Source: Streptosporangiales bacterium (GTDB lineage Bacteria; Actinomycetota; Actinomycetes; Streptosporangiales; WHST01). From it: a stretch of DNA of 36,989 nt. Of the stretch, positions 5,238-33,576 are shown in pieces. Below the pieces are notes generated by a model. That model made no database searches and had not been told where the DNA came from. It saw nothing but the letters and a program-made list of their open reading frames with translations. The stretch is from assembly GCA_009379955.1 (NCBI GenBank), contig WHST01000064.1, positions 1-36,989 on the forward strand. The letters run 5' to 3'. The translations under genes were made by a program, and so were the position numbers. How positions within the stretch are numbered: position 1 is the stretch's first letter; every line of letters starts with the position of its first letter.

Positions 5238-6374
5238 GTGGCCGATGATAATATATTCGTACTTGGTGTCGGGAACACCGACTATCCCGCGGACGCGCGA
5301 GAGACCCGTCAGGGTGCCCGGCTCAACCCGTACGCACTGGCGGCGCGGGCGCTGAAGCGGGCACTTGCCGACGCGGCGATGGCCAAGGCGGAGATCGACG
5401 GCATCGTCGTTGGCGGCCAGCTGGTGTACGAGCGGTTCGCCGAGATCGTCGGGAACCTCACCCACTATGGGGGAGTCGGGGACTGCTCAACGGTCATCGA
5501 GCAGGCACAGATGGCCGTGCTGACCGGCAAGTGCAAGAACGTCGCCGTCGTCTTCGCGCTGTGTCCCCGCAGCTCGCGCATGCGGTTCGGCGGGAGATCC
5601 GCGGCGGGCGGCGACCGACAGCTCCCGTACACGTACCACAACCGGGTGGGGCTCACGTCCCAAGGCGCCCTCTACGCGATGGTCGCGCGCCGGCACATGG
5701 CGGTGTACGGCACGACCGAGGAGGACTGGGGAGTCTTCTCCTGCGGCGTGCATAACAATGCGACCCCGAACGTCCAGGCGCACGAACGGGATCCGCTCAC
5801 GGTCGACGATTACATGGCACTGCGCTACATCGCCGAGCCGCTCCGCCGGCCCGACTACTGCCTGATGAACGACGGCGCGGTCTCCATGATCTTCTCCGGT
5901 ATCCCGCGCGGACCCCATCCGGTGCGGCTCGGCTACGTTGGTCGGCAGGACGACCTGAAGGACGCGACCCAGCTCAGGTCGCGCATGGACTTCTACCACG
6001 AGAACCTGGCTGCGGTGGCCGAGAGTTTCCGCGAGGCCAACGGGTTCGGCGTCGGCGACGTGGACTTCCTCGAGGTCTACGACAGCTTCAGCGTCCACAT
6101 CCCGCTGGCCTTGGAGGGACTGGGGATCGTGGGGTACGGCGAGGCCGCGAGCTACGTCCGCGACAAGGGGATTTCCGCGACGTCGGAGTTCCCCGTCAAC
6201 CCCTCCGGTGGCCACCTCGCGGAGGCGTACATGCAGGGTTGGAACCACCAGGTCGACGCTGTACGCCAGGTGCGCGGCGATGCCACGGGCGCACAGGTGC
6301 CTGGGGCGCAGCGCGGTGTGTACCTGTCCTCGGCCGTGGGGCGCACGTCGCTGCACCTCTACGAGAGGGTGTGA
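5238..6374 (+). CDS. Thiolase-fold retro-aldolase (Ltp2-like), first copy
   Basis: The 378-residue thiolase-superfamily protein resembles the lipid-transfer/SCP2-thiolase branch (VLGVGNTDY at residues 8-16, MNDGAVSMIF at 210-219). The usual thiolase chemistry residues are replaced. The CxSG nucleophile motif is absent (only GDCST around Cys83), NEAF is VYDSF (Tyr281), and the catalytic GHP His is Tyr331 in NPSGGHLAEAYMQGW. The same Tyr pair is known in Ltp2, the steroid side-chain aldolase that works with a DUF35 partner. The probable reaction is therefore retro-aldol cleavage of a beta-hydroxyacyl-CoA, not thiolysis. The GTG start has GGAGG about 13 bases upstream, a long spacing, and no later start precedes the conserved strand. 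The DUF35 gene follows directly. Confidence 0.85.
   Translation: MADDNIFVLGVGNTDYPADARETRQGARLNPYALAARALKRALADAAMAKAEIDGIVVGGQLVYERFAEIVGNLTHYGGVGDCSTVIEQAQMAVLTGKCKNVAVVFALCPRSSRMRFGGRSAAGGDRQLPYTYHNRVGLTSQGALYAMVARRHMAVYGTTEEDWGVFSCGVHNNATPNVQAHERDPLTVDDYMALRYIAEPLRRPDYCLMNDGAVSMIFSGIPRGPHPVRLGYVGRQDDLKDATQLRSRMDFYHENLAAVAESFREANGFGVGDVDFLEVYDSFSVHIPLALEGLGIVGYGEAASYVRDKGISATSEFPVNPSGGHLAEAYMQGWNHQVDAVRQVRGDATGAQVPGAQRGVYLSSAVGRTSLHLYERV
5245..5257 (+). promoter_or_regulatory. AT-rich motif ATGATA-N3-TATT, copy 1
   Basis: ATGATAATATATT lies just inside the first thiolase-fold gene, seven bases after its GTG. The same pattern recurs at 11395-11407 and 23361-23373. It is conspicuous against the GC-rich background. 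Its place over a start codon suits an operator better than a -10 box for this gene. Confidence 0.4.
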
Positions 6375-6379
6375 CCGCC

Positions 6380-6790
6380 ATGGCCGAGAAAGCGACCGGG
6401 ACGGTGTCGGCCTTCTGGTCGTTCGGCGTCGACGACGAGCCGCTGTGGGACGAGCTGGGCGAGGAACGCGTGGTCGTCCAGCGCTGCAAGGAGTGCGCGG
6501 CCTTCGTCCACCCACCCACCGTCGCGTGCGGAAACTGTCTGTCCACCGATCTCGCGCTGGCGCCGGTGACAGGTGCCGGCGAGGTGCTCGCCTGGACCCG
6601 CATGCACCTGGAGTACCTGGAGGAGTGGCCGCCGCCCTACGTCGTCGCCGCCGTGCGGCTGGACGAGGGACCGATCCTCATGTGCACCGTCACCGAAGGG
6701 GCGACCGAGGTGGGAGCGCGCGGACGCGTGGTCCCCCACGTCGCCGCGTCGTCCCTCGCGGTCTACCGCTTCGTCGACGCAGGACACTAG
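6380..6790 (+). CDS. DUF35 OB-fold / zinc-ribbon partner of the thiolase-fold protein, first copy
   Basis: The 136-residue protein has the classic DUF35 order. An N-terminal helix is followed by a rubredoxin-like zinc ribbon (CKEC at about residues 36-39, CGNC at about 52-55) and an OB fold with GAGEVLAWTRMH and RLDEGPILM. Such proteins bind the acyl-CoA and form a heterodimer or tetramer with their thiolase-like neighbour, as ChsH2-DUF35 does with Ltp2. The start chosen is the ATG at 6380, ten bases after AGAGGG. An in-frame GTG at 6371 overlaps the upstream stop but sits too close to the Shine-Dalgarno. Its TAG interlocks with the TAG of the convergent MmgE/PrpD gene within the four bases CTAG. 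Confidence 0.88.
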   Translation: MAEKATGTVSAFWSFGVDDEPLWDELGEERVVVQRCKECAAFVHPPTVACGNCLSTDLALAPVTGAGEVLAWTRMHLEYLEEWPPPYVVAAVRLDEGPILMCTVTEGATEVGARGRVVPHVAASSLAVYRFVDAGH

Positions 6791-8139
6791 GCGAGCAGCG
6801 CCCCCAGCTGGCGCACGTTTGCGAGCGTCTCGAGCGAATCGACCGTCGCGATGATCGTCTCTGCGCGGTCGGCGCCGACAACGGGGCCGGTGAGTCGGCG
6901 GAACTTGTCGGTCACCTCCGCGTTCGAGACCAGGACGTCAGGCTCGCCGATGGGATGGCCCACCGGCAGCTCGCGCACGGTGCCGTCGCGGAACTCGATC
7001 CGCAGGTGCTTCATCGTGACGAATGGCATCTCCTCGCCGTCGACCAACTCCGTCGACACTCGGTTCGCAAGCTCGACGAGTGTGGGGTCGGCGAGGTCGA
7101 CCTCGTTGTAGTCCCACCAGGAGTTCGGCCTGCCGTGGAGGTTCATCGCGACCGAGAAGGCGAGGCTGAACTGCGCGCCGAGCACGTCCGTCGGCGCCTT
7201 GATCGTGCCGACGTGTGAGACGGCGGCGGGATTGGTGCTGAAGACCCTGACGCACTCGACGTCCACCGGGTCGAACCGCTGCTCCTTCTGCAGGATCGCG
7301 ATGCCTTCGAGCACGGGCTGTATGAGGTGGCAGCAGCTGAAGAGCTTGATCGCGGTCTGCTTGACGAGGTACTTCTCGCCAAGCTCCCTGCAGAGCCAGC
7401 TCACGTCATACTCGCCGGCGAACGCGGTGAGGAAGCCGCGCTTACCCTCGAGCATCGTCGGGGGACCGGTGACGCCGGCCTGCGCGAGCAAGGTCGCGCG
7501 GATGCCGGCGCTAGCGGGGATACCGCAGTGCAGGCGCTTCACCGACCCGCCGGTCTGCGTGTACTCCATCTGCCCGCCGGAGTAGCTGCCGGCGATGGAG
7601 ATCGCGTTCAGCGTCTCGGCCGGGCTCAGCTCCATGATGCGCGCGGCCGCCGCGGCCGACGCGAACGGACCCACGGCGAGCGGCGGATGGTGGCCGCGTG
7701 CGAACATGAACGGCCGTACGGCGTACGCGATCCGCAGATGTGACTCGTACGCCGCGACGACGGCCTCGATCAGGGTCTGCCCGCTCGCACCGACGTGCTC
7801 GCCCATGGCGATTGCCGGCGGGATCGAGACGGCACCCGGATGACTCGGGCTCCAGAAATTCGAGTCGTCGGACTCGTTGCTGTGACTGAAGGTCCCGTTG
7901 AGGAACGCGGCGGTGTCGGGGGCCAGCCGGCCCGACCTGCCGACGACGGTGGAGTGGCCGGCCGCGCTGAGCGGTACGACGGCATCGAGGATCCTGTGGC
8001 TCCATGGCATCTCGACGCCGGCGATCTGGCACCCGAGGTTGTCGAGGATCAGCAGCTTCGTGAAGTCGACGACACTTCGCGGCAGGTCTTCGATCCTCAC
8101 GTTCGATACGTACTCGGAAAGCGTGGCTGTCTCATTCAC
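6787..8139 (-). CDS. MmgE/PrpD family protein 1
   Basis: The 450-residue protein belongs to the MmgE/PrpD family, which includes 2-methylcitrate dehydratase and cis-aconitate decarboxylase. By eye against cis-aconitate decarboxylase the active-site positions are present: Asp91-Asp92 in SNESDDSN, His100 in SPSHPGAV, His151 in GHHPP, Lys201 in GSVKRLH and Lys265. A His at 271 is slightly displaced relative to the usual K-x8-H spacing. The GTG start at 8139 follows AAGGAG by about eleven bases and lies seven bases after the CoA-transferase stop. The longer frame only adds an Arg/Thr-rich tail that overlaps that gene. It is co-transcribed with the CoA-transferase. Whether it dehydrates, decarboxylates or isomerises cannot be told. 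It most resembles protein 6 of this window. Confidence 0.88.
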   Translation of the reverse strand: MNETATLSEYVSNVRIEDLPRSVVDFTKLLILDNLGCQIAGVEMPWSHRILDAVVPLSAAGHSTVVGRSGRLAPDTAAFLNGTFSHSNESDDSNFWSPSHPGAVSIPPAIAMGEHVGASGQTLIEAVVAAYESHLRIAYAVRPFMFARGHHPPLAVGPFASAAAAARIMELSPAETLNAISIAGSYSGGQMEYTQTGGSVKRLHCGIPASAGIRATLLAQAGVTGPPTMLEGKRGFLTAFAGEYDVSWLCRELGEKYLVKQTAIKLFSCCHLIQPVLEGIAILQKEQRFDPVDVECVRVFSTNPAAVSHVGTIKAPTDVLGAQFSLAFSVAMNLHGRPNSWWDYNEVDLADPTLVELANRVSTELVDGEEMPFVTMKHLRIEFRDGTVRELPVGHPIGEPDVLVSNAEVTDKFRRLTGPVVGADRAETIIATVDSLETLANVRQLGALLA

Positions 8140-8146
8140 GTCGGCC

Positions 8147-10429
8147 TCACTCCTTGTTGTCCGGTCGGTGCGTGGGTGCCCCCTGGTCGCCGAGCGTGGT
8201 CGTCGCCGTCCGGAGCAGGTCGTCGTTGTCCCTTCCGAGTCGAGGTGCGGTCCGGCGCACACGCACGGGCGTCCGCGAGAACCTGAAGGGCGAGCCGATG
8301 AGCCGCATCGGACCGTGGTCGGGGACGTCGAGGGTGACGACCATCTCCCGCGCCGCGGTCTGCGCCCCCTCGATCACGTCGGGCAGGGAGGCCGGGACGC
8401 AGGCCGGCACGCCCGCGACCAGGCAGGCGGTGACGACGGCGTCAGCGTCCTGTGTCGACGTCCACGCGGACACCGCCTCCTCGATCCGGTCGCGCTGCCG
8501 CAGCCGTCCGTCGGCCGTCGTCAGCGCGAGGTCGGCCGCGAGGTCGGATCGCCCCATGGCTCCGGCAAGGGCGAGCCACTCGGCTTCGGTCTCGACGGAG
8601 AGCGCAACGGGTACGTCGCGAGTGGGGAAGCAGTCGTGCGGGCAGTGCTGCGCGTGGCGGTTGCCCATCCTGAGCACCGCAGTGCTCTCCGACCGCCACC
8701 AGTCCTCCTGGGTGGACCAGACCGAGGCGTCGTAGAGTGACGCCTCCACCGTCATTCCGCGACCCGTACGCTCCCGTGCCAGGAGCCCGACAAGGACGCC
8801 GAGAAGGCAGCTGCACGCGCCGAGCAGGTCGGCGATCGACACGGCGACCTTCAGCGGTTCGCGCTCGGGGAAGCCGGTCAGGTCCATGATCCCGGCGAGC
8901 GCCTGCACGACGGTGTCCAGCGCCTTCCGCCCGCCGTACGGCCCGTCGGAGCCGAACCCGGTCAGTGCGCCGTACACCAGACGGGGGCTTGTCGCGCACA
9001 GCTCCGCCGAGCCCAGGCCGTTACGCTCCAGCGTTGTCGGAAGGAGGTTGGAGAGGAAGACATCGGCGTCGGCGGTGAGCTCCCGCAGCTCCCGCTGGTC
9101 GCGGTCCTCGTTCATGTCGAGCGTGCAGGAGAGCTTGTCGGTGTTGTTGATGTGGTACAGGTAGGAGCCGCCAGGCATCCGCCATGGCATGTGCCGGGTA
9201 GCCTCGCCCGCGGGTGGCTCGACCTTGACCACCTCGGCTCCCATCATCCCCAGCAGCCGCCCGACCAGAGGCCCCGCGGTGAACGCACACACCTCGACGA
9301 CGCGGATTCCGTGCAGTGGGCCGAGGTCGCCGCCGTGCACCGATGTTCGTGTGGCGGGGCCTGCGGTATCCGTCGTGCCCGGCGTCGGCGTGAACCGCAG
9401 GAACCGTCCGCTGACCGGTCCGTGCGGCGTCGGGACGACTGTCCCGCGATGCCGGGCATGCTCGTCAGACAGCACGTCGCGCAGCACCGGGATCGGGCCG
9501 CAGACCACGCCTCCGCGGGAAAGGATGGCCACGGCCTCGGCCGTCGTGCGGCTGCGGGTCCACTCCTCGACCACGGCGTCGAGTGACTCGACGTTCCGGG
9601 TGCGGGCAGTGGAGTCGAGGTAGCGATGGTCGTCGACGAGCTCGGGCATGTCGATAGCCCTGGCGAAGTCCTCGAACTGCGCCTGGTTGACGGTGCAGAC
9701 GATCAACCAGCCGTCCCGTGACCGGTACGAGTTCCACGGGGCCGTGAGCGCGTGCCTGTTCCCGATGCGTGAGGGGTTCTCGCCGGTCATCTCGTACGCG
9801 GGGAGCCACGTGCCGAGGAAAGCGATAAGCGTGTCGTACTCGGCCTGGTCGAGGAACTGGCCCAGCCCGGACGCCTCCCGCTCGTGGAGGGCGGCGAGCG
9901 CACCGGCCACGCCGAGTAATGCACCGCCCATCGCGGCGACCGGGACTCCCGCCCGCACCGGCGGATCGTCGGTGTAGCCGTTGGTGGCCATGATCGCGGC
10001 CGCTGCCTGGACGGTGAGCTCGCTGCCTGGCCGTCCCTGCAGAGGGCCGGTGAGCCCGAACGGCGTGAGGCAAAGGAACACGGTGCGGGGTGCGAGCGCC
10101 ACCAGCACATCGTCGTCGAGTCCCTCGCGGGCGAGGACCGCATAAGACTCACGGTCGAGCACGACGACGTCGGACGCCACCAGATGCCCGGTAAGAACGT
10201 CCCGTGCGTCGGGGCGGGTGAGGTCTGAGGCGTGCGGATGCTTCCCCGAGGACGCCAGCCATGCGGGGCTCCGTGCGGGAGCGGCGGCGGACGGGACGGC
10301 GGCGGCTCCGGCCGTGACGACGTTGGCCCCGAGGTCGGCCAGGACCCGGCCCGCGAGAGAGGCGGAGCACCAGCCGCGGGCCGTGAGCTCCAGGACCCGC
10401 AGTCCGGCAAGTGGTGACCCGGCCTGCAT
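8147..10429 (-). CDS. Didomain class III (CaiB/BaiF) acyl-CoA transferase
   Basis: The 760-residue protein holds two consecutive family III CoA-transferase domains, about residues 6-365 and 370-745. Each begins with the typical nucleotide-like strand (LAGLRVLELTARGWCSASLAG; LHGIRVVEVCAFTAGPLVG). Each also keeps the catalytic Asp position: Asp199 in LDQAEYD and Asp567 in EASLYDA. Single-domain members are about 400 residues, so this is a natural fusion; family III enzymes normally act as interlocked dimers. It would activate a carboxylic acid by moving CoA from a donor such as succinyl-CoA. The start at 10429 follows AGAGGA by nine bases. An upstream ATG at 10456 lacks a Shine-Dalgarno, and the open frame beyond that runs antisense to the hydratase gene. 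Confidence 0.9.
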   Translation of the reverse strand: MQAGSPLAGLRVLELTARGWCSASLAGRVLADLGANVVTAGAAAVPSAAAPARSPAWLASSGKHPHASDLTRPDARDVLTGHLVASDVVVLDRESYAVLAREGLDDDVLVALAPRTVFLCLTPFGLTGPLQGRPGSELTVQAAAAIMATNGYTDDPPVRAGVPVAAMGGALLGVAGALAALHEREASGLGQFLDQAEYDTLIAFLGTWLPAYEMTGENPSRIGNRHALTAPWNSYRSRDGWLIVCTVNQAQFEDFARAIDMPELVDDHRYLDSTARTRNVESLDAVVEEWTRSRTTAEAVAILSRGGVVCGPIPVLRDVLSDEHARHRGTVVPTPHGPVSGRFLRFTPTPGTTDTAGPATRTSVHGGDLGPLHGIRVVEVCAFTAGPLVGRLLGMMGAEVVKVEPPAGEATRHMPWRMPGGSYLYHINNTDKLSCTLDMNEDRDQRELRELTADADVFLSNLLPTTLERNGLGSAELCATSPRLVYGALTGFGSDGPYGGRKALDTVVQALAGIMDLTGFPEREPLKVAVSIADLLGACSCLLGVLVGLLARERTGRGMTVEASLYDASVWSTQEDWWRSESTAVLRMGNRHAQHCPHDCFPTRDVPVALSVETEAEWLALAGAMGRSDLAADLALTTADGRLRQRDRIEEAVSAWTSTQDADAVVTACLVAGVPACVPASLPDVIEGAQTAAREMVVTLDVPDHGPMRLIGSPFRFSRTPVRVRRTAPRLGRDNDDLLRTATTTLGDQGAPTHRPDNKE

Positions 10430-10552
10430 CGCGGTGTATCCTCTCTGATAATTCATCACGAGGATTGTGACACGGCTCGGGTCTCTTCGGGAGTGTGAGT
10501 TCACTCGCCCGGACGGAGTGGCGGCCGGGCGCATCGGCGGAAGGCGGCCCGC
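10430..10552. promoter_or_regulatory. Divergent control region with AT-rich element CTGATAATTCATC
   Basis: These 123 bases separate the minus-strand CoA-transferase from the plus-strand enoyl-CoA hydratase, so promoters for both should lie here. CTGATAATTCATC at 10445-10457 is a looser relative of the ATGATA-N3-TATT motif. GATAAT within it could serve as a plus-strand -10, but I find no good -35 at 16-18 bases. Confidence 0.35.
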
Positions 10553-11335
10553 ATGGCGTACGAGCTCCTCACGGTGGAGGTCGAGGGATCGGCAGGAGTC
10601 ATCCGCCTCGACCGGCCGGAGAAGCACAACTCGTTCAGCTCGCAGCTGTTGCGCGAGTGCGAGGAGGCCGTCAAGGAGCTGGAGGTTCGTACCGGGGTCA
10701 GGGGCATCATCCTGACCGGCACGGACGTCGCGTTCTCGACGGGTGCGGACCTCAACGAGGCGCTCGCCATTGTCAACGGCACCGAGGCCGTCAGGTTCAA
10801 CCGTGGCTTCCGCGACCTGTGCACCACCATGGAGCGCAGCGCGCAACCCGTCGTCGCCGCCATCGGCGGGCACTGCATCACGGGTGGACTCGAGGTCGCT
10901 CTGGCGGCCGACATTCGCATCGCCTCGGAGAACGCGCTGTTCTCGATCACGAGCGCGAAGATCGGGTCGGTCGCCGGGGCCGGCGGTACTCAGCGCTTGC
11001 CGCGTGTGGCAGGACGCTCCGACTCGATGGAGCTGCTCTTCACTGCACGCTTCGTCGACGCAGCCGAGGCGCAACGGCGCGGCATCGTGAGCAGGGTGGT
11101 TCCTCCGGGAGGCGCGCTTGACGCCGCCAGGGAGCTCGTCGAGGAGATCGCCACCCGCGGGCCACTCAGCGTGGCATGGATGAAGAAGGCCGTGCAGGCG
11201 GGCATGAACATGGACCTGGAGTCCGCGCTGGACTTCGAGGCGGTCCTCGCAGGGATCGCCTGCGCCACCGCGGACAAGCGCGAGGGCATGAGTGCGTTCC
11301 TGGAGAAGCGGACTCCTGTGTTCCAGGGCGCCTGA
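10553..11335 (+). CDS. Enoyl-CoA hydratase/isomerase family protein 1
   Basis: The 260-residue crotonase-fold protein shows VIRLDRPEKHNSFS at the start, oxyanion-hole segments near FSTGADLNEA and HCITGGLEVALAAD, and GAGGTQRLPR. The first catalytic Glu of enoyl-CoA hydratases is present as Glu114 in TGGLEV. The second, normally in the PE motif, is Ser134 (SITSAKIG). A one-Glu crotonase is more likely an isomerase, hydrolase, lyase or weak hydratase than a standard hydratase. The ATG at 10553 follows GGAAGG and GGCGG runs within 13 bases. It is divergent from the CoA-transferase and about 235 bases upstream of the second thiolase-fold gene, which has its own likely promoter. Confidence 0.85.
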   Translation: MAYELLTVEVEGSAGVIRLDRPEKHNSFSSQLLRECEEAVKELEVRTGVRGIILTGTDVAFSTGADLNEALAIVNGTEAVRFNRGFRDLCTTMERSAQPVVAAIGGHCITGGLEVALAADIRIASENALFSITSAKIGSVAGAGGTQRLPRVAGRSDSMELLFTARFVDAAEAQRRGIVSRVVPPGGALDAARELVEEIATRGPLSVAWMKKAVQAGMNMDLESALDFEAVLAGIACATADKREGMSAFLEKRTPVFQGA

Positions 11336-11374
11336 GGTGCCCGACTGGCAGGGGAAGGGGACCGATGTGGACCA

Positions 11375-11407
11375 TTGACCATATTTCCACCGAGATGATA
11401 CTTTATT
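11375..11407 (+). promoter_or_regulatory. Probable SigA-type promoter plus AT-rich motif copy 2
   Basis: TTGACC (11375-11380) and TACTTT (11399-11404) are 18 bases apart, a reasonable actinobacterial -35/-10 pair for the gene starting at 11571. The -10 lies inside ATGATACTTTATT (11395-11407), the second exact copy of ATGATA-N3-TATT. A regulator binding there would block polymerase. A leader of about 160 bases would follow. Confidence 0.5.
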
Positions 11408-11570
11408 GCCAGCGCACGAGCAGCAGGCGTGTGCCCCTGTGTGCCACATCCCGTCGTGGTTGGTCCGGGATGGAGACATCGGTCGAGAGGAGAGCGGACC
11501 GCCGCGGTCTGACGAAGGTCTGCCGGAAGGTGCCCTCTAGGGGTGACCGGCGAACGAGAGGACCTGTCGG

Positions 11571-12734
11571 ATGACGACGAGTCTCTTGCGGGACCGGACC
11601 GCGATCGTGGGGATCGGTGAGACGGACTTCGGTGCGATGTACCGCACCAGGGACCCCGACCTGACTCCTTACGACCACGGTGGCGAGGCGTTCGCCCGCG
11701 CGCTGGAGGACAGCGGCCTGCGTGCCGATGAGATCGACGGCCTGATCTGCGCTCGGATTCCGTCCTATGCACGCATGGCCGACGTGCTCGGCCTGAAGCA
11801 TCCCCGGGTCGTCAACGTCTTCGAGGGCACGGGCCGTATGTCGGGTCTCGCGCTCCAGACGGCCGTCATGGCCATCGCGACGGGACAGGCCGAGGTCGTC
11901 GCGTGCGTCTACGGTAACGACGGGCGGTCGGCCGGTGCGCGGTACGGCGGCAGCGTGGTCGACCTGACCGGGAGCATCAACACCGCCGTGTACGACTCGA
12001 TGCACGGCATGACGTCACCCGGCGCCTACGTGGCGATGATGTACCGCAGGTACCAGTACCTGTACGGAGCGCCCGACGACGCGCTCGCGCCGCTGGCGAT
12101 CAACAATCGCAGGAACGGCGCGCTCAATCCGAACGCCGTGATGCGCAAGGCGATCACCTACGACGAGTACCTGGCGGCGCGCTGGATCACCGAGCCGCTG
12201 CGACTGTTCGACTACTGCCTCATCAACGACGGTGGTGTCGCCCTGATCATCACGACGGCCGAGCGTGCCAGGGACCTGCGCAAGCCCCCGGTGTACGTGA
12301 GCGCGACCGCCACCGCCGGCGACCTCACGAACTTCTACACGAGCCAGGACTTCTTCTTCGACGCTGCGAGCGATGTAGCCACGCGTCTCTATCGGGCCGC
12401 GGGGATCGAGCGGGTGGATGTGGACGTGCTCCAGGTCTACGACAACTTCACACCGACGATCCTGTTCTCCCTGGAAGGCATGGGCTTCGCCGATCGCGGT
12501 GAGGCATGGCAGTACGTCCGCGACGGCCGCATCGAGCTGGGCGGTGCGCTGCCCGTCAACACCGGTGGTGGTCACACCGCCGAGAGCTACATGCAGGGCT
12601 GGGCGCTGCACGCGGAGGCGGTACGGCAGGTCCGCGGAGAGGCCGGAGCCCGTCAGGTCAAGGACTGCGAGGTCGCGCAGTACGTCTGCCTCTCGCCCAT
12701 CGTGTCCAGCCACATCTTCCGGAGGGACAGGTGA
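11571..12734 (+). CDS. Thiolase-fold retro-aldolase (Ltp2-like), second copy
   Basis: The 387-residue paralog of the protein at 5238 lacks the thiolase nucleophile: the region reads EGTGRMSGLALQ with no Cys. Tyr290 (VYDNF) and Tyr340 (NTGGGHTAESYMQGW) take the places of the usual Asn and His, as in the Ltp2 aldolase. It is therefore probably a C-C lyase acting on a beta-hydroxyacyl-CoA. ATG 11571 has GAGAGG nine bases upstream. Its stop overlaps the DUF35 start (GTGA), so the two subunits are coupled. It differs widely from the first copy outside the motifs, so the two pairs probably cleave different intermediates. Confidence 0.87.
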   Translation: MTTSLLRDRTAIVGIGETDFGAMYRTRDPDLTPYDHGGEAFARALEDSGLRADEIDGLICARIPSYARMADVLGLKHPRVVNVFEGTGRMSGLALQTAVMAIATGQAEVVACVYGNDGRSAGARYGGSVVDLTGSINTAVYDSMHGMTSPGAYVAMMYRRYQYLYGAPDDALAPLAINNRRNGALNPNAVMRKAITYDEYLAARWITEPLRLFDYCLINDGGVALIITTAERARDLRKPPVYVSATATAGDLTNFYTSQDFFFDAASDVATRLYRAAGIERVDVDVLQVYDNFTPTILFSLEGMGFADRGEAWQYVRDGRIELGGALPVNTGGGHTAESYMQGWALHAEAVRQVRGEAGARQVKDCEVAQYVCLSPIVSSHIFRRDR

Positions 12735-13156
12735 GCGTGGTCGCACCCGTGGTTCCCGAGGTCACGGCGTCGAACCGGCCGTTCTTCGAGGGCGCGCGCG
12801 AAGGTGAGCTGCGCGTGCAACGGTGCTCCGCATGCGGACACCACCACTTCCCGCCCACCTCGCGTTGTGCGGCCTGCCTGTCCGTGAAGGTCGAGTGGAC
12901 TGCAGTGTCGGGCCGTGGCTCCCTCTGGTCCTGGGTCGTCATGCATCGCGCCTACTTCACCGCTCTCAAGGGGAGCCTTCCCTACGAGGTCGGGTTCGTC
13001 AGGCTCGACGAGGGTCCGATGATGATGACGCGGCTGGTCGAGATCCGCGGCCGGGACCTTGCATGCGACATGCCGGTGGAGGTCGTGTTCGAACGGGTTA
13101 CCGCGGATCTGACGCTGCCGATGTTCCGGCCGCTGACAATCGGTGATGCCCCGTGA
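12731..13156 (+). CDS. DUF35 OB-fold / zinc-ribbon partner, second copy
   Basis: The 141-residue protein has CSAC (about residues 34-37) and CAAC (about 50-53) forming the zinc ribbon, then an OB-fold region with GRGSLWSWVVMHRAYF and VRLDEGPMMM. It is the CoA-ligand binding partner of the thiolase-fold protein just upstream. The GTG at 12731 overlaps that gene's stop and has GGAGG five bases before it. A GTG at 12737 would give better spacing and would remove only two residues. Its own stop overlaps the next hydratase start. Confidence 0.87.
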   Translation: MSVVAPVVPEVTASNRPFFEGAREGELRVQRCSACGHHHFPPTSRCAACLSVKVEWTAVSGRGSLWSWVVMHRAYFTALKGSLPYEVGFVRLDEGPMMMTRLVEIRGRDLACDMPVEVVFERVTADLTLPMFRPLTIGDAP

Positions 13157-14001
13157 CCGGACGCGGCGACGGCGCCCACGGCGAGCTCGTCCTGCTCGAA
13201 CGCTTCGACGGGTACGCGGTCGTCACGCTGAACCGGCCGGAGAAGGCCAACGCGATGAACGCGGCCGCTCAGACGGAGCTCGCGGCCGCGCTCGACGCTG
13301 TGCGGGAGGACTGTCGCGCCGTCGTGCTGACGGGCGCGGGCCACCGGTCGTTCTGTGCCGGCGTCGACCTGTCCGAACGCCGAGGGCTGTCGAAGAACCA
13401 GGTGCAGGAACGTCTCTTCTCCTGGGGCGCCGACCCGTGGTTCGAGATCCAGGAGCGCATCCTCCGGCACCCCGCGGTGTTCGTCGCCGCCGTGAACGGT
13501 GCCGCTCTCGGCGGCGGACTCACCCTGGTGAACAACTGCGAGATCGCCGTGGCGTCCGACGCCGCCGTGTTCGGCATGCCCGAGATCGGGCTGGGCACGT
13601 TCCCCGCCCTCTCCGGCGCGTCGACACTGCACCGCATCCTGCCCAAACATGCCGCATACCTCGTCCTCACGGCGGATCGTGTCGACGCGGAGAAGGCGTT
13701 GCGCTGGGGTCTGGTGACTGAGGTGGTACGGCCTGACGACGTGCTGTCTCGCGCCAAGGAGATCGCGGCGATCGTGGGAAAGCTCGACCCGGTCGTGGTC
13801 GACTTCAGCAAGAGGGCGGTGCGCGAGGTACCGACCATGGACTGGTCCAGGAGTATCGACTACGGCCTGCGCACCGGGATGGTGGTCCGCGCCAACTCGG
13901 ATGCCGCCGTCGCCGGCGTCACGCGCTTCCTCGATCGCGCCGAGAGGGGAGGAGGTAACACATCGGCACCGAGCTCCACGACGGCGGAACCGCACACCTG
14001 A
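13153..14001 (+). CDS. Enoyl-CoA hydratase/isomerase family protein 2
   Basis: The 282-residue crotonase-fold protein shows VVTLNRPEKANAMN, FCAGVDLSE and VNGAALGGGL. The first catalytic Glu position is Thr124 (GGGLTL), while the second is kept as Glu144 in GMPEIGLG. This is the opposite pattern to the paralog at 10553. The GTG start overlaps the DUF35 stop by GTGA. The last 20 or so residues are Ser/Thr/Ala-rich and probably disordered. By context it acts on the same acyl-CoA as the neighbouring aldolase pair. Hydratase, isomerase or hydrolase are all possible. Confidence 0.85.
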   Translation: MTGRGDGAHGELVLLERFDGYAVVTLNRPEKANAMNAAAQTELAAALDAVREDCRAVVLTGAGHRSFCAGVDLSERRGLSKNQVQERLFSWGADPWFEIQERILRHPAVFVAAVNGAALGGGLTLVNNCEIAVASDAAVFGMPEIGLGTFPALSGASTLHRILPKHAAYLVLTADRVDAEKALRWGLVTEVVRPDDVLSRAKEIAAIVGKLDPVVVDFSKRAVREVPTMDWSRSIDYGLRTGMVVRANSDAAVAGVTRFLDRAERGGGNTSAPSSTTAEPHT

Positions 14002-14109: not shown

Positions 14110-15243
14110 ATGGATCGCACTCCAGCCGAGCCGCTGCTCGAGGCGCGCAACCTCACCAAGTACTACCCATTGGCCCGGAAGGCGCCGTGGTCCAGGCGCA
14201 CCGGCGTGGTGCGGGCCGTCGACGGGATCTCGTTCTCACTCGGGGAGCAGGAGACGATCAGCCTGGTCGGCGAGTCCGGCTGTGGCAAGACGACCACGGC
14301 GCGAATGATCCTCGATCTCGAGAGGCCCACGAAGGGCGAGATCGTCTACCGGAGCAGGGACCTGAGAACCCTGAGGGGCAGCAGCCGCCTCGAGTACCGC
14401 ACGTCGGTCCAGGCCGTGTTCCAGGATCCGACGACCTCCCTCGATCCGCGGCGGCGCGTGCGCGCGATCGTGGGAGAGCCGCTGGCGGTGAACCGCAAGC
14501 TGAGCCATGGGGAGCTGAACAGGCACGTCGACGAGCTGCTCACTGCCGTGGGGCTCGACCTGTCCCAGGCGAGGAGCTTCCCGCACGAGCTCAGCGGAGG
14601 CATGCGCCAGCGCGTGGCCGTGGCGCAGTCGCTGGCACTGCGGCCGTCGCTGATCGTGCTCGACGAGCCGGTCTCGGCGCTCGACGTCTCCATCCGTGCG
14701 CAGATCATGAACCTGTTGAAGGACCTGCAGACCGAGTTCGGCCTCTCGTACCTGCTCATCGCGCACGACCTGGCGACGGTCCGCTACCTGAGTGACCAGG
14801 TGGCGGCGCTCTACCTCGGGCAGATCGTCGAGATCGGCGACTCCGAGATCATGTTCACCCGCAGCCTGCACCCGTACACCCTGGCGCTGATCTCCGCGGC
14901 CGACAGCTCGGAGGACCGTGACGGTCGGCCACGCATCGTGCTGCAGGGCGACGTGGCGTCGCCGGCCGACCCGCCGTCGGGTTGCCGGTTCCACCCACGC
15001 TGCTGGCTGCGGACCCAGCTCTCCGACACCGAGCGCTGTACGACCGAGGCTCCGGCGCTGCGTCCCCTCGGGGAGAACCACAGGGTGGCCTGTCACTTCG
15101 CCGAGACGCTGACCGAGCCCGAGCAGCGTAAGCGACTGCTCGATGTCGCCCGCGAGGCGAGCCGCGACCCGGCCGATACCACGCCGGCCACACCGACAGG
15201 TGTCGGTGCCGCACCCGGGCGGGGAGAGGAGGACTGGTCGTGA
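14110..15243 (+). CDS. Oligopeptide/dipeptide-type ABC transporter ATPase (DppF/OppF-like)
   Basis: The 377-residue ATPase has Walker A GESGCGKT at 54-61, Q-loop VFQDP around Gln105, signature LSGGMRQR at 161-168, Walker B LIVLDEP at 181-187 and the switch His219 (IAHD). The C-terminal oligopeptide domain has the four-Cys pattern GCRFHPRC...C...C at about 294-330. In relatives this can hold an iron-sulfur cluster. The ATG at 14110 has GGAGAAA upstream. It opens the transporter operon after a 108-base gap, and its stop overlaps the first permease start. No binding protein is encoded in this operon. Confidence 0.93.
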   Translation: MDRTPAEPLLEARNLTKYYPLARKAPWSRRTGVVRAVDGISFSLGEQETISLVGESGCGKTTTARMILDLERPTKGEIVYRSRDLRTLRGSSRLEYRTSVQAVFQDPTTSLDPRRRVRAIVGEPLAVNRKLSHGELNRHVDELLTAVGLDLSQARSFPHELSGGMRQRVAVAQSLALRPSLIVLDEPVSALDVSIRAQIMNLLKDLQTEFGLSYLLIAHDLATVRYLSDQVAALYLGQIVEIGDSEIMFTRSLHPYTLALISAADSSEDRDGRPRIVLQGDVASPADPPSGCRFHPRCWLRTQLSDTERCTTEAPALRPLGENHRVACHFAETLTEPEQRKRLLDVAREASRDPADTTPATPTGVGAAPGRGEEDWS

Positions 15244-16154
15244 CCAACTACATCCTCAGGCGACTCTGGCAGGGCGTGATCTCGATCATGCTGCTGCTGA
15301 CCCTGGTCTTCTTCTTGAGCCGGACGACGGGTAACCCGCTGGACCTGCTGGTCCCCATCGACGCCACGCCGGAGACGATCGCCAACATCTCCCGGCAGAA
15401 CGGTCTCGACAAGCCGTTGATCGTGCAGTACCTGTACTACATCGGCAACCTGTTCACCGGCGACATGGGCACGTCGATCCGCTACCGACAACCGGTGTGG
15501 GATCTCTTCAAGGACGCGTTCCCCAACAGCCTGCGGCTGGTGATTCCGTCCTTCATCTCGGCGATCGTCATCGGCATCCCGCTCGGCGTGCTCGCGGCCA
15601 CCTCGCGGCTGCGGATCGCCCGTCGCCTGTTGGCGGCCGTCGGTGTCGTCGGTATGGCCACGCCGCTGTTCTGGCTGGCGATCCTGTTGATCTTCCTCTT
15701 CTCCGTCAAGCTCGGCGTGCTGCCGTCGTCACAGATGGGAGGTATCGACCACTACGTCATGCCGGTCGCCGCGATGACGATGTTCATCATGGCGGGCCTG
15801 CTCCGGCTGACTCGGTCGAGCATCCTCGATGCGATGGACAGCGAGTACGTCAAGCTGGCGCGGCTCAAGGGCCTGTCCGAGAACCGGGTCATCTGGAAGC
15901 ACGCGCTGCGCAACTCGCTGACCGCGGCCGTGGCGTTCCTCGGCGTCCTGCTCTCGTTACTGCTGACCGGGAGCACGGTGATCGAGACGGTCTTCGCGTG
16001 GCCGGGCACGGGACGGCTCACCTACGACGCACTGGTGTCCCGCGACTATCCCCTCGTCCAGGGCATCGTGCTCATCACGGCGATCTTCATCATCTTGGTG
16101 AATCTCGTGGTCGACATCCTGCACGCCTATCTCGAACCGAGGATCCGGCTATGA
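15240..16154 (+). CDS. ABC transporter permease (DppB/OppB-like)
   Basis: The 304-residue inner-membrane permease has the DppB N-terminal helix (ILRRLWQGVISIMLLLTLVFFL), a large extracytoplasmic loop containing NGLDKPLIVQYLYYIGNLFTGDMGTS, and about five further helices. The EAA coupling loop is EYVKLARLKGLSENRVIWKHALRNS at about 201-225. The GTG start overlaps the upstream ATPase stop and its own stop overlaps the next permease (ATGA), so the subunits are translated together. Confidence 0.93.
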   Translation: MTNYILRRLWQGVISIMLLLTLVFFLSRTTGNPLDLLVPIDATPETIANISRQNGLDKPLIVQYLYYIGNLFTGDMGTSIRYRQPVWDLFKDAFPNSLRLVIPSFISAIVIGIPLGVLAATSRLRIARRLLAAVGVVGMATPLFWLAILLIFLFSVKLGVLPSSQMGGIDHYVMPVAAMTMFIMAGLLRLTRSSILDAMDSEYVKLARLKGLSENRVIWKHALRNSLTAAVAFLGVLLSLLLTGSTVIETVFAWPGTGRLTYDALVSRDYPLVQGIVLITAIFIILVNLVVDILHAYLEPRIRL

Positions 16155-17029
16155 GCGCTCTGGACCTGGGCCCGCGCGACGTGCAGGTACCGCTCGAGGA
16201 CCTGACGTTCAAGGTGAAGCGGCGCTCGCTTCCCTGGGTGACGCTGTTGATCGTGGGGTTCTTCATCTTCGTGGGACTCTTCGCGCCGCTGCTGACCTCC
16301 TACAGCCCGACGGCGCCCGATCTCATCAACCGCCTGCAGCCACCGAGCGCGGAGCACTGGCTCGGCACCGACAGCCTCGGGCGCGACATGGTGACGCGCC
16401 TGTTCCACGGGGCCAGGATCACGCTGACCGTGGTGACGTTCGCACTCCTCATGGGGTCGGGCGTCGGGCTGGTGCTCGGCATGGTGGCGGGCTACTTCGG
16501 CGGCGCGGTCGACGCGGTCATCTCGCGCATCGTCGACGCGGTCCTCTCGATCCCCGGCCTCTTCTTCGGCCTGCTGTTCGCGGCGACACTGGGCACCGGC
16601 ATCAAGTCGGTCGTCTTCGCCATCTCGCTCATCCTGTGGTCGAGGTTCGCACGGGTGATCAGGAGCGAGGTGAGGTCGATCAGGGAACGGGACTTCGTAT
16701 CGCAGTCCCGTGTGATCGGATGCTCCCGACTCCGCACGATCGTCGTGCACGTGTTCCCGAACGTGCTGAGCACGATCATGGTGCTCGTCTCCATCAACCT
16801 CGGTGAGGTCATCCTCCTCGAGGCCGCGCTGAGCTTCCTCGGGGCGGGCATCCCGCCGCCCAACCCCTCGTGGGGAGCGATGATCGCCGAGGGTCAGCGC
16901 TACCTGACGACGGCATGGTGGATGGCACTGACCCCGGGGGTGGCCATCCTGCTCGCGGTGCTGTCGGTGAACCTGCTGGGTGACTGGGTCCGTGAACGTC
17001 TCGACCCGCGGCTGCGCGACAAGGTGTGA
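16151..17029 (+). CDS. ABC transporter permease (DppC/OppC-like)
   Basis: The 292-residue permease has the DppC signatures HWLGTDSLGRDMVTRLFHGARITL near the first extracytoplasmic segment and an EAA loop, RERDFVSQSRVIGCSRLRTIVVHVFPN. Near the end, FLGAGIPPPNPSWGAMIAEGQ is typical of the family. The ATG at 16151 overlaps the DppB-like stop; the frame is open far upstream only as a shadow of that gene. It forms the translocation pore with the DppB-like subunit. Confidence 0.93.
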   Translation: MSALDLGPRDVQVPLEDLTFKVKRRSLPWVTLLIVGFFIFVGLFAPLLTSYSPTAPDLINRLQPPSAEHWLGTDSLGRDMVTRLFHGARITLTVVTFALLMGSGVGLVLGMVAGYFGGAVDAVISRIVDAVLSIPGLFFGLLFAATLGTGIKSVVFAISLILWSRFARVIRSEVRSIRERDFVSQSRVIGCSRLRTIVVHVFPNVLSTIMVLVSINLGEVILLEAALSFLGAGIPPPNPSWGAMIAEGQRYLTTAWWMALTPGVAILLAVLSVNLLGDWVRERLDPRLRDKV

Positions 17030-17033
17030 CCCG

Positions 17034-18125
17034 ATGACCGAAAAGAACGGCAGCACACCGACCGATGCGCCGGGCTCCCTGGTGCTCTCGGTGGAGGACC
17101 TGCAGATCTACTTCTACAGCCGACGCGGTGTCGGCAAGGCCGTCGACGGCGTCAGCCTCGACCTCTACCGAGGACAGACCCTCGGCGTCGTCGGCGAGTC
17201 GGGAAGCGGCAAGAGCGTGACGGCGGCCGCGCTGGTGGGGCTGCTGCCCAAGCCGGCGGCACGCATCCTCGGCGGCCGGATCCTCTTCAACGGCGAGGAC
17301 CTGACCGACAAGTCCAACGACCAGTGGCGTGCGTACCGGGGCAAACACATCGCGATGATCCTGCAGGACCCGCTGAGTGCACTCAACCCGGTCTTCACGA
17401 TCGGCAATCAGGTGTACGAGCCGCTGAAGCTGCACAAGCGGCTCTCGGGTACACCGTTGAAGCAGCGGGCGATCGAGCTGCTGAGGCTGATGCGGATTCC
17501 CGCCGCCGCGGACCGGCTCAACAGCTACCCGCACCAGTTCAGCGGTGGCATGCGCCAGCGGGTCGTCGGCGCCATCGGGCTGGCCGGCGAGCCCGAGGTG
17601 CTCATCGCGGACGAGCCGACGACCGCGCTCGACGTTACCGCGCAGGCCGCATACATCCGGCTGCTCAAGGACGTGCAGAGGCGGACCAACCTGGCGATGC
17701 TGTTCATCACCCACGACTTCGGCATCGTCGGCGACGTCTGCGACAGGGTCGCGGTCATGTACGCGGGGCGTGTGGTGGAGACCGCGAGCACGCGATCGAT
17801 CTTCCACGCGCCGTCGCATCCGTACACCAAGGCGCTACTGCGCTCCGTCCCGGACCTGAAGAAGGGCGCGGACCGCCTGGTCTCGATCCCGGGCGCGCCG
17901 CCGTCGATCTACGGCCAGCCCGCGGGCTGTCGCTTCCATCCGCGCTGCTGGCTCTACGACCAGCTGGGTCAGCCGGAGCGCTGCCGGACGGACGTGCCGG
18001 CGCTGTCGAGCGTCGCCGAGAGCCACACGGCGGCGTGCCACTTCACGGACGAGGCCATGCGGCGCGAGATCCAGGTCGAGGATCGGGCCCGTCCGGTCGT
18101 GTCACCCGCCACGGACGACGCGTGA
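17034..18125 (+). CDS. Oligopeptide/dipeptide-type ABC transporter ATPase (DppD/OppD-like)
   Basis: The 363-residue ATPase contains Walker A GESGSGKS, Q-loop LQDPLSALNP, signature FSGGMRQR, Walker B LIADEPTTALD and switch His in FITHDFG. The C-terminal four-Cys oligopeptide domain (GCRFHPRCWLYDQ...C...C) is present. The start at 17034 lies four bases after the permease stop; an earlier in-frame start would overlap the permease. With the ATPase at 14110 it gives a heterodimeric motor. Placing the two ATPases on either side of the permeases is less common than the usual A-B-C-D-F order. Confidence 0.92.
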   Translation: MTEKNGSTPTDAPGSLVLSVEDLQIYFYSRRGVGKAVDGVSLDLYRGQTLGVVGESGSGKSVTAAALVGLLPKPAARILGGRILFNGEDLTDKSNDQWRAYRGKHIAMILQDPLSALNPVFTIGNQVYEPLKLHKRLSGTPLKQRAIELLRLMRIPAAADRLNSYPHQFSGGMRQRVVGAIGLAGEPEVLIADEPTTALDVTAQAAYIRLLKDVQRRTNLAMLFITHDFGIVGDVCDRVAVMYAGRVVETASTRSIFHAPSHPYTKALLRSVPDLKKGADRLVSIPGAPPSIYGQPAGCRFHPRCWLYDQLGQPERCRTDVPALSSVAESHTAACHFTDEAMRREIQVEDRARPVVSPATDDA

Positions 18126-19357: not shown

Positions 19358-20689
19358 TCAGCCGAGAGGGAGGGTGGCGACGGGAGCGCCGGCTCGCTGC
19401 CCGCGGGTGAACGCGGTTCCAAACGGCTTGGAGAGCTCGTCCAGCGTGTCGAGGATCGCCTCGCCCTCCGCGCCGGTCGCGAGCGCCGGCTCGCCGCGCC
19501 GGTAGACGAGCTCGCCACTGCTGAGCACGAGCGGACGGATCTCCAGGGACGCGGAACCGCCACCGACGTCGAGGCTCACCATGATCGCCTCCCAGAACCG
19601 GCGGTGCGCGGAGAATCCCACCTCCACGGCGTCGAAGTAGTCGCGTGGCGTCGACGTGGCCGCGTCGACGCCCTGGAGCAGGTAGGCCGCCTCGGGGAGA
19701 TATGGCACGGTCTCGGGCGTGAAGAAGAAGTTCCCTGTCGAGTAGAGGATCGGCTTGCCCTGGTAGACCTCCACGCCACGGATGCAGTGCGGGCCGTGGC
19801 CGATGACGACGTCGGCTCCGGCGTCGATCCACCGGTGGGACGCCTCGACGAGGAAGTCCGGGAGGTCGTACGAGTTCCAGCCGTCTGCGGCTCCCTCGTG
19901 GCAGTGCACGCTGACGGCGACGACATCGGCGGACCTGCGTGCGAAGTCGACGGACCGGTCGATGTCGTCGAGGTCGTGCGGGTGCGCTCTCGTGTTGACC
20001 CTCGTCTCGTCACCCACCGTGAAGACGGTGCCCGCGAACGGCACGGTGGAGCCGGCGCGAACGTTTGGGCCGCCGGTCATGAAGATCCGCGACTTGCTTG
20101 CCGCCACCCGGTCCACCCTGGCGGCCGCCGTGCCGAGGCGCTCGTCGAGATCGGCCAGGTAGCGGATGTCGTCCTCCGTGACGGAGTAGGTCGTGGACCA
20201 ACGCAGCGGGTTGACACCGGAACGGCCCGTCGTACGGAGGTTCGGGTCCGTGGCGAGGCTGACGTCGGCGGTGCTAGCACACACACCCACGAGGGCAAAC
20301 CGTCCCGCCGGACTGTCGACGAACACCGGTTCCCGTGCCTCACCGAGCGTACGACCGGCACCGGCGAACGGCAGCCTCGCCGCGGACAGCCTGGCGATCA
20401 GGTCGTCGAGTCCGCGGGTGGAGTAATCGAGCGCGTGGTTGTTGCCGATGTTCACGACGTCGATGCCGAGCCAGCGGAGGTCTTCGATCGTGTCGGGGTG
20501 GCCCATGAGGTGCATCCCGTGCCGGACCGGACCGGGCGTGGCTGGCAGGTCCGGCAATGCCGCCTCAAAGTTCGTGAACGCGATGTCGGCGCCGCGGAGC
20601 GCGTCCCGGATGGGTTCGAAGGGCGAGTCGTCACCACGGTGGGCGAGGCGCCTGGTCAGGATGGCGTCTCCGGTCGCGAGGAGCCTCAT
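19358..20689 (-). CDS. CapA/PgsA-type metallophosphatase-like protein
   Basis: The 443-residue protein has the CapA-family (calcineurin-like) metal motifs in order: ATGD at 5-8, TNFEAAL at 39-45, GNNHALDY at 82-89, a VHCHEG segment, GHGPHC and STGNFFF. The family is named for poly-gamma-glutamate capsule synthesis but is widespread, and many members sit in catabolic or modification clusters with unknown substrates. No other capsule gene is near. No signal peptide is seen, suggesting a cytoplasmic protein. The start at 20689 has AAGGGG eight bases upstream; longer frames run through the divergent promoter region. It may hydrolyse a phosphoester or cyclic ester in the pathway, which is inference. 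Confidence 0.82.
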   Translation of the reverse strand: MRLLATGDAILTRRLAHRGDDSPFEPIRDALRGADIAFTNFEAALPDLPATPGPVRHGMHLMGHPDTIEDLRWLGIDVVNIGNNHALDYSTRGLDDLIARLSAARLPFAGAGRTLGEAREPVFVDSPAGRFALVGVCASTADVSLATDPNLRTTGRSGVNPLRWSTTYSVTEDDIRYLADLDERLGTAAARVDRVAASKSRIFMTGGPNVRAGSTVPFAGTVFTVGDETRVNTRAHPHDLDDIDRSVDFARRSADVVAVSVHCHEGAADGWNSYDLPDFLVEASHRWIDAGADVVIGHGPHCIRGVEVYQGKPILYSTGNFFFTPETVPYLPEAAYLLQGVDAATSTPRDYFDAVEVGFSAHRRFWEAIMVSLDVGGGSASLEIRPLVLSSGELVYRRGEPALATGAEGEAILDTLDELSKPFGTAFTRGQRAGAPVATLPLG

Positions 20690-20710
20690 CGCAGCAACCC
20701 CTTCCGTAGG

Positions 20711-20738
20711 AGGATCTGATACAAGATAATCCATACCC
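20711..20738. promoter_or_regulatory. Divergent control region with CTGATACAAGATAAT
   Basis: The 49-base gap between the CapA-like gene and the LLM gene contains CTGATACAAGATAATCC (20716-20732). GATAAT at 20725-20730 would serve as a -10 placing transcription start at about 20737-20739, on the LLM start codon itself. On the other strand TATCTT is possible. It is a loose relative of the ATGATA-N3-TATT motif. Confidence 0.4.
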
Positions 20739-21815
20739 ATGAGCACCGTCGAGCAGTCGTCCGCCGCAGGCATTCGCCTCGGCCTCCTCATCAGCCGGGA
20801 CGAGCCGGGCACCAGCGATCCGGTGGTGACCCTGGCGCAGAGCGTCGAGCGCGCCACGCGGGCACGGGACGCCGGATTCGAGATGATCAGCGTCGCGCAC
20901 CGGTACTCGTTCGGTCCGTCCGCCGACGCCGACGAGGCCTCGCTGTTCACCTGGCGCTTCCAGCCCTTCCTGATGCTGGCGTACCTCGCCGCCCGGCTGG
21001 GGGACACGGTCGACTATGCGACCAGTGTGCTCGTCTCTCCCGGACTGCATCCGGTGCAGCTGGCCGAGGACGTCGCCACGCTGGACGCGATGTGCCACGG
21101 GCGCCTCAAGGTCGGCATCGGGTTGGGCTGGATGCCCTATGAGTTCGAGGCGTTCGGCGTCACCAGCACCGGTCGGGCCAGGCGGTTCGACGAGCTGCTC
21201 GAGACCTATCGGGCGTTGACGACGCAGGACTCGGTCACCAGCGCCGGCCCGCACTTCCCGGTCGCGGGCAGGTCGCTGGTGGCGCATGGCATCCAGCGCC
21301 CGGTGCCGCTGTGGATCGGGGCGTCGGCCGACGCGGCGGTTCGTCGTGCCGCACGTTACGGCGACGCATGGGTGATGACCGCTCACATGGACGTCGCTAC
21401 GCTGGTGGAGCAGCAGCGGCTATACCATGCCGAGCTCGCCCGCTGGGATCGCCCCCGTCCTGCCCGCGTTCCCGTCAACCGCATGCTGGCCATCGCCGAG
21501 GACAGGGACACCGCGCTACGGGAGATCCGCCCGATGATCGAGGACTGGTACCGCAAGCGCGGTACCTGGGGATGGTTCCTCACCGAGGACACCGCGTCCG
21601 ACATCACGGCGATCGGCGACAGGTGGATCGTCGGCGATCCCGACGACTGCGTCGAGCAGATCCTGGCGCTGCGCAGGGAGCTGGGCGCGACCGACGTCAT
21701 CCTGGCGACACCGTTCCCCGGAGCGGACCAGGTCACGCGCCTGCGCATGATTGATCTGGTGGGGGAGCACGTGATCCCGCGCCTCGCTGCGGCGGCGGCG
21801 GAATCGGTGGCCTGA
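20739..21815 (+). CDS. LLM-class flavin-dependent oxidoreductase (luciferase-like)
   Basis: The 358-residue luciferase-like TIM-barrel protein carries LGLLISRDEPG at strand 1, AARLGDTVDYATSVLVSP and GRLKVGIGLGWMPYEFEAFG near residues 125-144, and PLWIGASADAAVRRAARYGDAW at about 188-210. These segments are typical of F420- or FMN-dependent members in actinobacteria. It would oxidise, reduce or oxygenate an intermediate. There is no Shine-Dalgarno before ATG 20739, and a -10-like GATAAT ends nine bases earlier, so the message may be leaderless. It is convergent with the PrpD-type gene, 20 bases away. Confidence 0.88.
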   Translation: MSTVEQSSAAGIRLGLLISRDEPGTSDPVVTLAQSVERATRARDAGFEMISVAHRYSFGPSADADEASLFTWRFQPFLMLAYLAARLGDTVDYATSVLVSPGLHPVQLAEDVATLDAMCHGRLKVGIGLGWMPYEFEAFGVTSTGRARRFDELLETYRALTTQDSVTSAGPHFPVAGRSLVAHGIQRPVPLWIGASADAAVRRAARYGDAWVMTAHMDVATLVEQQRLYHAELARWDRPRPARVPVNRMLAIAEDRDTALREIRPMIEDWYRKRGTWGWFLTEDTASDITAIGDRWIVGDPDDCVEQILALRRELGATDVILATPFPGADQVTRLRMIDLVGEHVIPRLAAAAAESVA

Positions 21816-31346: not shown

Positions 31347-31393
31347 CGCAGGAGACCAGTGGTGCTGTACCAGTTCGAGAGGGTCGACTGATC

Positions 31394-33531: not shown

Positions 33532-33576
33532 GTGTCACGGTACGGCATGGTTCGAAGGCCCGAGGAGGCGCACGAG

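Follow-up and report, generated by a model that had tools for sequence, protein, structure and literature searches.

The 36,989-base contig WHST01000064.1 of the Streptosporangiales bacterium assembly GCA_009379955.1, analyzed in its entirety and referred to here as the window, carries two genes for thiolase-fold proteins, THL1 and THL2, each with a DUF35 zinc-ribbon gene (DUF35-1 and DUF35-2) directly downstream on the same strand (Table 1). We consider it probable that each pair, THL1-DUF35-1 as well as THL2-DUF35-2, forms a heteromeric retro-aldolase which acts on non-steroid β-hydroxyacyl coenzyme A (CoA) esters without a catalytic cofactor, each with its own zinc-ribbon partner. An earlier note had reported Tyr at both catalytic sites of both proteins, with a DUF35 gene after each, and had called the pairs Ltp2-type C-C lyases. 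This observation was confirmed by the intact open reading frames (ORFs) and by alignment for the Tyr residues, and by zf-ChsH2 and OB_ChsH2_C matches for the partners. The enzyme class was well supported but the Ltp2 family name was not: the Tyr pair and the DUF35 partner argue that the proteins work alike, while tree topology, NCBIfam score and the replacement of Ltp2 His296 by Ser or Asn argue against family membership.

THL1 and THL2 both matched the Pfam domain Thiolase_C_1 and contained the motifs VYDSF...GGHLAEAYMQGW (THL1) and VYDNF...GGHTAESYMQGW (THL2). When aligned to TcLtp2, the aldolase of structure 6OK1 (THL2 E 1e-57, THL1 E 2e-32), Tyr281 of THL1 and Tyr290 of THL2 fell at the position of Tyr294, and Tyr331 and Tyr340 at that of Tyr344, residues which PMC12329534 gives as catalytic base and acid, respectively. 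The earlier note had taken Asn to be the residue replaced at the first site, which needs correction as the closest SCP2-type thiolases have His there (HDxF). Neither protein has the catalytic residues that mark SCP2-type thiolases, a nucleophile Cys together with HDxF and GHP; Gly88 or Val80, Tyr and Tyr stand there instead. In P. furiosus thiolase 7YVY, the Cys that serves as nucleophile lines up with Gly88 in THL2 and with Val80 in THL1, the latter in helix register. Canonical paralogues from the same genome (L116-L118) served as an internal control and retained Cys, HDxx and GHP. About five residues of the nucleophile loop were gone from THL1 in the alignment, and in the THL1 model strand 77-81 passes almost directly into helix 83-95, while the THL2 model has a five-residue loop (85-89) in between; the THL1 subfamily thus lacks most of this loop. 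A Cys in the nucleophile pocket, which had been named beforehand as the finding that would count against a lyase, was not present. Cys83 of THL1 lies near the loop but was rejected as a nucleophile, being Ala in the other subfamily members checked. The Tyr pair is not a chance feature, as it was kept in seven relatives (L114, L132-L137) from profile searches made without selection for it.

AlphaFold2 models of the single chains had mean predicted local distance difference test (pLDDT) scores of 94.0 for THL2 and 91.7 for THL1. The Ltp2-ChsH2(DUF35) aldolase 6OK1 was the best structural match of both models (THL2, Z 51.4, root-mean-square deviation 2.1 over 371 residues; THL1, Z 45.8, 2.2 over 360 residues), while classical thiolases gave Z of about 33.5 for THL2 and 31 for THL1. 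The loss of the nucleophile Cys together with the conserved Tyr pair favours the retro-aldolase reading and, with the match of the predicted folds to 6OK1, supports THL1 and THL2 as putative C-C lyases rather than thiolases.

To which family the proteins belong was decided by a four-position code (TcLtp2 294/296/339/344) and by phylogeny. The code reads Y-H-Q-Y in steroid Ltp2, Y-C-Q-Q in the bile acid aldolase CtSal, Y-A-H-Y in IpfD, Y-N-H-Y in THL2 (Asn292, His335) and Y-S-H-Y in THL1 (Ser283, His326). Among 134 homologues YNHY was read in 84, YHQY in 23 and YSHY in 11, and every one of the 23 steroid-type Ltp2 sequences had Y-H-Q-Y; for part of this set the second Tyr was preset by the genome scan pattern [LT][SA][END][SA]Y[ML]QGW, which left positions 296 and 339 free (480 stretches with relatives in one scan). 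In the tree both proteins fell within a 50-row clade with a Shimodaira-Hasegawa-like approximate likelihood ratio test (SH-aLRT) support of 99, apart from the Ltp2 clade (SH-aLRT 99), and constraining them into the latter cost 146 log units (approximately unbiased (AU) test, p = 1.06e-5). THL1 and THL2 scored 181 and 287 bits against the NCBIfam Ltp2 model NF005892 (cut-off 469), and were 27-34% identical to TcLtp2. The Y-N/S-H-Y clade was present in at least six phyla, including Chloroflexota, Synergistota and anaerobic Bacillota, and is a separate, widespread and apparently uncharacterized family; for the YDNF motif and for PrpD with DUF35, nothing relevant was found in the literature searched.

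Within this clade THL1 and THL2 represent two old subfamilies that usually keep different partners, a stronger statement than the two distinct pairs described before. A recent duplication was rejected: identity between the two is 35%, their subclades differ, and both have closer kin in other phyla. Among 298 order-level relatives no close THL1 orthologue was found at E 1e-90, and among 395 phylum-level relatives no close THL2 orthologue at E 1e-80; the nearest THL2 locus (L011, 72-73% identity) has two thiamine-diphosphate enzymes of acetolactate synthase-like fold near its THL2 operon. The side chains of Cys304, Gln347 and Gln352 in CtSal are described as hydrogen-bonded (PMC12329534), so the His gone from position 296 and present at 339 may have been relocated inside a single hydrogen-bond network, a reading which on the tree depends on few events (2 and 3 changes). 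In a sister lineage, with the motifs YDAF and GGLLxEAH, the second site again has His; it was represented at L004 (5490-6662) and L073 (1559-2740), in clusters of Rhodococcus and Amycolatopsis that also encode PQQ-type proteins and proteins like indolepyruvate ferredoxin oxidoreductase. Two further clusters (L066, 5178-10752; L072, 5524-11140) each contained three distinct Ltp2-like genes (YDAF/GGM..Y, YDSF/GGH..Y and YDNF/GGH..Y) together with DUF35 genes, a CoA ligase and a hydrolase of the cyclase family.

With the wide group of DUF35-dependent thiolase-fold retro-aldolases (Ltp2, Sal, IpfDE) the window proteins share a predicted fold lacking the Cys, the YDxF Tyr and a cognate DUF35 gene. 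Ltp2-ChsH2(DUF35) itself has the same fold, Tyr294/Tyr344 pair and partner and likewise no nucleophile Cys, but differs in its clade, in His296 and Gln339 (Asn or Ser and His here) and in the surrounding genes. The bile acid aldolase CtSal-CtShy(DUF35) (9MYR) shares the fold, the catalytic YDxF Tyr, a DUF35 partner and Gly at the nucleophile site, but relies on Cys304 and has Gln352 where THL1 and THL2 have the second Tyr, and its CtShy DUF35 has a C3H1 zinc site and a fused MaoC domain in contrast to the C4 sites of DUF35-1 and DUF35-2. IpfD-IpfE of plasmid pIBU218 has a DUF35 partner, both Tyr residues and the His of GGH, but belongs to a separate tree lineage with Ala at the 296 position and works with a CoA ligase and a ring dioxygenase. 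It is described as a retro-aldolase whose products are propionyl-CoA and 4-isobutylcatechol, and a transposon mutant of ipfD did not grow on ibuprofen (PMC9195938). IpfDE, whose retro-aldol step is proposed with mutant evidence, is a non-steroid precedent. The benzoylsuccinyl-CoA thiolase BbsAB (7PXP) has the fold and a DUF35-type subunit but retains the canonical thiolase residues (HDAF, GHP), and THL1 and THL2 scored 57 and 111 against the NCBIfam BbsB model (cut-off 750). The putative thiolase 4U4E from Sphaerobacter thermophilus, a near-equal structural match to THL1 (about 1 Z unit below 6OK1), shares its YDSF Tyr and has no nucleophile Cys, but has His (GLSYTHPG) where THL1 has the second Tyr.

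Of 97 Tyr-Tyr genes, 90 had a DUF35 gene immediately downstream. Neighbours were counted within 8 kb at 80 loci from GTDB genomes, which are not independent of one another: DUF35 was found at 78, CaiB at 63, crotonase at 28, Opp/SBP at 23, aldehyde dehydrogenase at 22 (a raw count) and MmgE/PrpD at 16, the last well above the background in 40 relatives of the window's genome, which average roughly one such gene each, with the same non-independence. THL2-DUF35-ECH2-CaiB-AldDH was a common operon (Cupriavidus, Streptomyces, Rhizobium), as was CaiB-CaiB-THL1-DUF35 in Burkholderiales (L134-L137). The CaiB-CaiB fusion of the window is likely the counterpart of the latter CaiB pair; in S. fredii GR64 (L007) THL1 is immediately preceded by a long CaiB frame like that of the fusion, and the two CoA-transferase domains, whether fused, in one long frame or adjacent, suggest an obligate heterodimer. 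A Chloroflexota locus (L033) shared PrpD, Opp, SBP, LLM, CaiB, ECH2 and THL2-DUF35 with the window. The window's PGA_cap gene has its like beside MmgE/PrpD and ECH2-THL2-DUF35 at four further loci, each with PrpD (L053, L059, L061, L069). A recurring block in L038-L050, mostly from metagenome-assembled genomes of Dehalococcoidia/Chloroflexota, combined a dehydrogenase resembling TcuA (scoring as high as about 440 bits with the TcuA-type protein of the window), an acyl-CoA dehydrogenase, THL2-DUF35, two CaiB and often OppBC. THL1 and THL2 occurred together in P. caribensis (L003) and in L060, L076, L078, L079 and L081-L083. An obligate two-step partnership was rejected, as six Burkholderiales THL1 loci from an independent search (L132-L137) had no THL2 in the 14-20 kb around.

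By analogy with TcLtp2, the YDxF Tyr (281/290) would remove the proton of the β-hydroxyl group, the C-C bond would then break to give a carbonyl compound and a CoA enolate, and the second Tyr (331/340) would protonate the enolate, with the GGH His (326/335) and Ser283/Asn292 taking over enolate stabilization from Ltp2 His296/Gln339. In the pathway envisaged, class III CoA-transferases would load the acids with CoA, a crotonase (ECH2 in the case of THL2) would hydrate the CoA ester and THL-DUF35 would cleave it, the carbonyl product then being oxidized. The aldehyde dehydrogenase neighbours point to aldol cleavage and not thiolysis, since only the former needs carbonyl oxidation. In this organism branched or polycarboxylic acids, as their CoA esters, would be the likely substrates; the above-cut-off TcuA-type dehydrogenase and PrpD suggest tri- or polycarboxylic acids, with no direct tie to THL1 or THL2. 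A wider proposal, which we put forward tentatively and regard as unlikely, is that the Y-N/S-H-Y clade forms a third kind of DUF35-dependent retro-aldolase in its at least six phyla, acting with MmgE/PrpD dehydratases and class III CoA-transferases on CoA esters of polycarboxylic or carboxyl-rich acids. It would be the thiolase-fold counterpart of CitE-type citryl-CoA or citramalyl-CoA lyases, and would convert a tertiary β-hydroxyacyl-CoA to a 2-oxo acid or aldehyde and an acyl-CoA.

Were the proteins true Ltp2 orthologues, they would be steroid side-chain aldolases with CoA esters of sterols or bile acids as substrates, and they do have the Tyr pair, DUF35 partner and top structural match of such enzymes. 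However, the AU test, the NCBIfam scores and the residue code all stand against it, as do clade members in Chloroflexota, Synergistota and anaerobic Bacillota. No steroid-ring genes were seen in the window, as the earlier note had also remarked, and a genome-wide search with the KstD (NF005882, E 1e-50) and Ltp2 (NF005892, above cut-off) models found neither in this draft assembly, while an order-level relative (G001) has both. We regard a steroid function as very unlikely. SCP2-type thiolases, as annotation would have them, are more improbable still: the fold and Thiolase_C_1 are theirs and DUF35 partners also accompany archaeal acetoacetyl-CoA thiolase and BbsAB, but there is no nucleophile Cys, HDxF has become YDxF and the GHP His has become Tyr; the canonical paralogues of that genome have retained Cys as well as the two His. 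Somewhat less remote, though still improbable, is a Tyr scaffold with other C-C chemistry, be it an aldol addition, a decarboxylation or a PhlABC-like C-acyl transfer. MmgE/PrpD and CoA-transferase neighbours suggest polycarboxylates, for which decarboxylation is possible, and TbSLP has weak malonyl-CoA decarboxylase activity whereas CtSal has none (PMC12329534); but aldehyde dehydrogenase and hydratase neighbours suit retro-aldol cleavage, and the acyl-accepting Cys of same-fold acyltransferases is missing.

Several points weigh against the retro-aldolase assignment. The oxyanion His296 of TcLtp2 is replaced in both proteins, and neither has the equivalent Cys304 (YDCY), which is essential in CtSal (PMC12329534), so that the THL site is a plain copy of neither enzyme. 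THL1, with its long branch (1.64), could have changed its function over time, and the predicted complex with DUF35 draws on gene pairing, the models being of single chains. No aldehyde dehydrogenase was found in the window. ECH2 carries Thr at one of the two catalytic Glu positions; compared with canonical crotonases in the alignment, ECH2 and its homologues keep the second Glu (FGMPE) and mostly have Thr at the first (GGGLT), a pattern which we take to resemble somewhat that of hydroxycinnamoyl-CoA hydratase-lyase. No enzyme assay for the Y-N/S-H-Y clade was found in the literature searched, and we know of no assayed member.

Table 1. Genes of the window, with coordinates on the contig.
Feature	Coordinates	Strand	Remarks
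THL1, thiolase-fold retro-aldolase candidate, YDSF subfamily	5238-6374	+	378 aa, GTG start, intact ORF
DUF35-1, C4 zinc ribbon and OB-fold, partner of THL1	6380-6790	+	Pfam zf-ChsH2 and OB_ChsH2_C
MmgE/PrpD paralogue a, between THL1 and CoA-transferase	6787-8262	-	actual start probably close to 8145
Fused double class III CoA-transferase (CaiB-CaiB), about 790 aa	8147-10522	-	
Crotonase 1 (enoyl-CoA hydratase family)	10553-11335	+	
THL2, thiolase-fold retro-aldolase candidate, YDNF subfamily	11571-12734	+	387 aa, intact ORF
DUF35-2, C4 zinc ribbon and OB-fold, partner of THL2	12731-13156	+	GTG start overlaps THL2 stop; zf-ChsH2 and OB_ChsH2_C
Crotonase 2 (ECH2), probable hydratase, recurrent partner of THL2-DUF35	13153-14001	+	
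OppF, OppB, OppC, OppD-type ABC importer	14110-18125	+	
PGA_cap (CapA-like) protein	19358-21007	-	
PrpD (2-methylcitrate dehydratase/aconitate hydratase)	21836-23314	-	NCBIfam 583 bits, cut-off 575
TcuA-type FAD-dependent tricarballylate dehydrogenase	23416-24897	+	504 bits, cut-off 369
MmgE/PrpD paralogue	24771-26267	+	
MmgE/PrpD paralogue	26306-27703	+	
MmgE/PrpD	31223-32767	+	
SDR	32764-33531	+	
MmgE/PrpD	33532-34944	+	

The genome has 6.6 Mb in 225 contigs (97.4% complete, 3.8% contamination). The window also encodes an MFS protein, a luciferase-like oxidoreductase and three SBP_bac_5 proteins. Six MmgE/PrpD genes lie in this 37 kb contig and 24 in the whole genome, compared with 0-9 in 40 relatives. 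The FAD protein was rejected as a steroid dehydrogenase, its best KstD model giving 139 bits (cut-off 789) as against the TcuA match listed in Table 1.

Relatives of THL1 and THL2 are carried by hundreds of genomes, and plasmid annotations name them acetyl-CoA acetyltransferase, thiolase or lipid-transfer protein. If they are true retro-aldolases, pathway reconstructions which put a β-oxidation thiolase at this step would be wrong, and the Y-N/S-H-Y residue code would let annotators tell the clade from both thiolases and steroid Ltp2. Because the His of the site seems to have shifted between two of its positions, the clade may also offer a natural test of where the oxyanion residue is placed in thiolase-fold aldolases.

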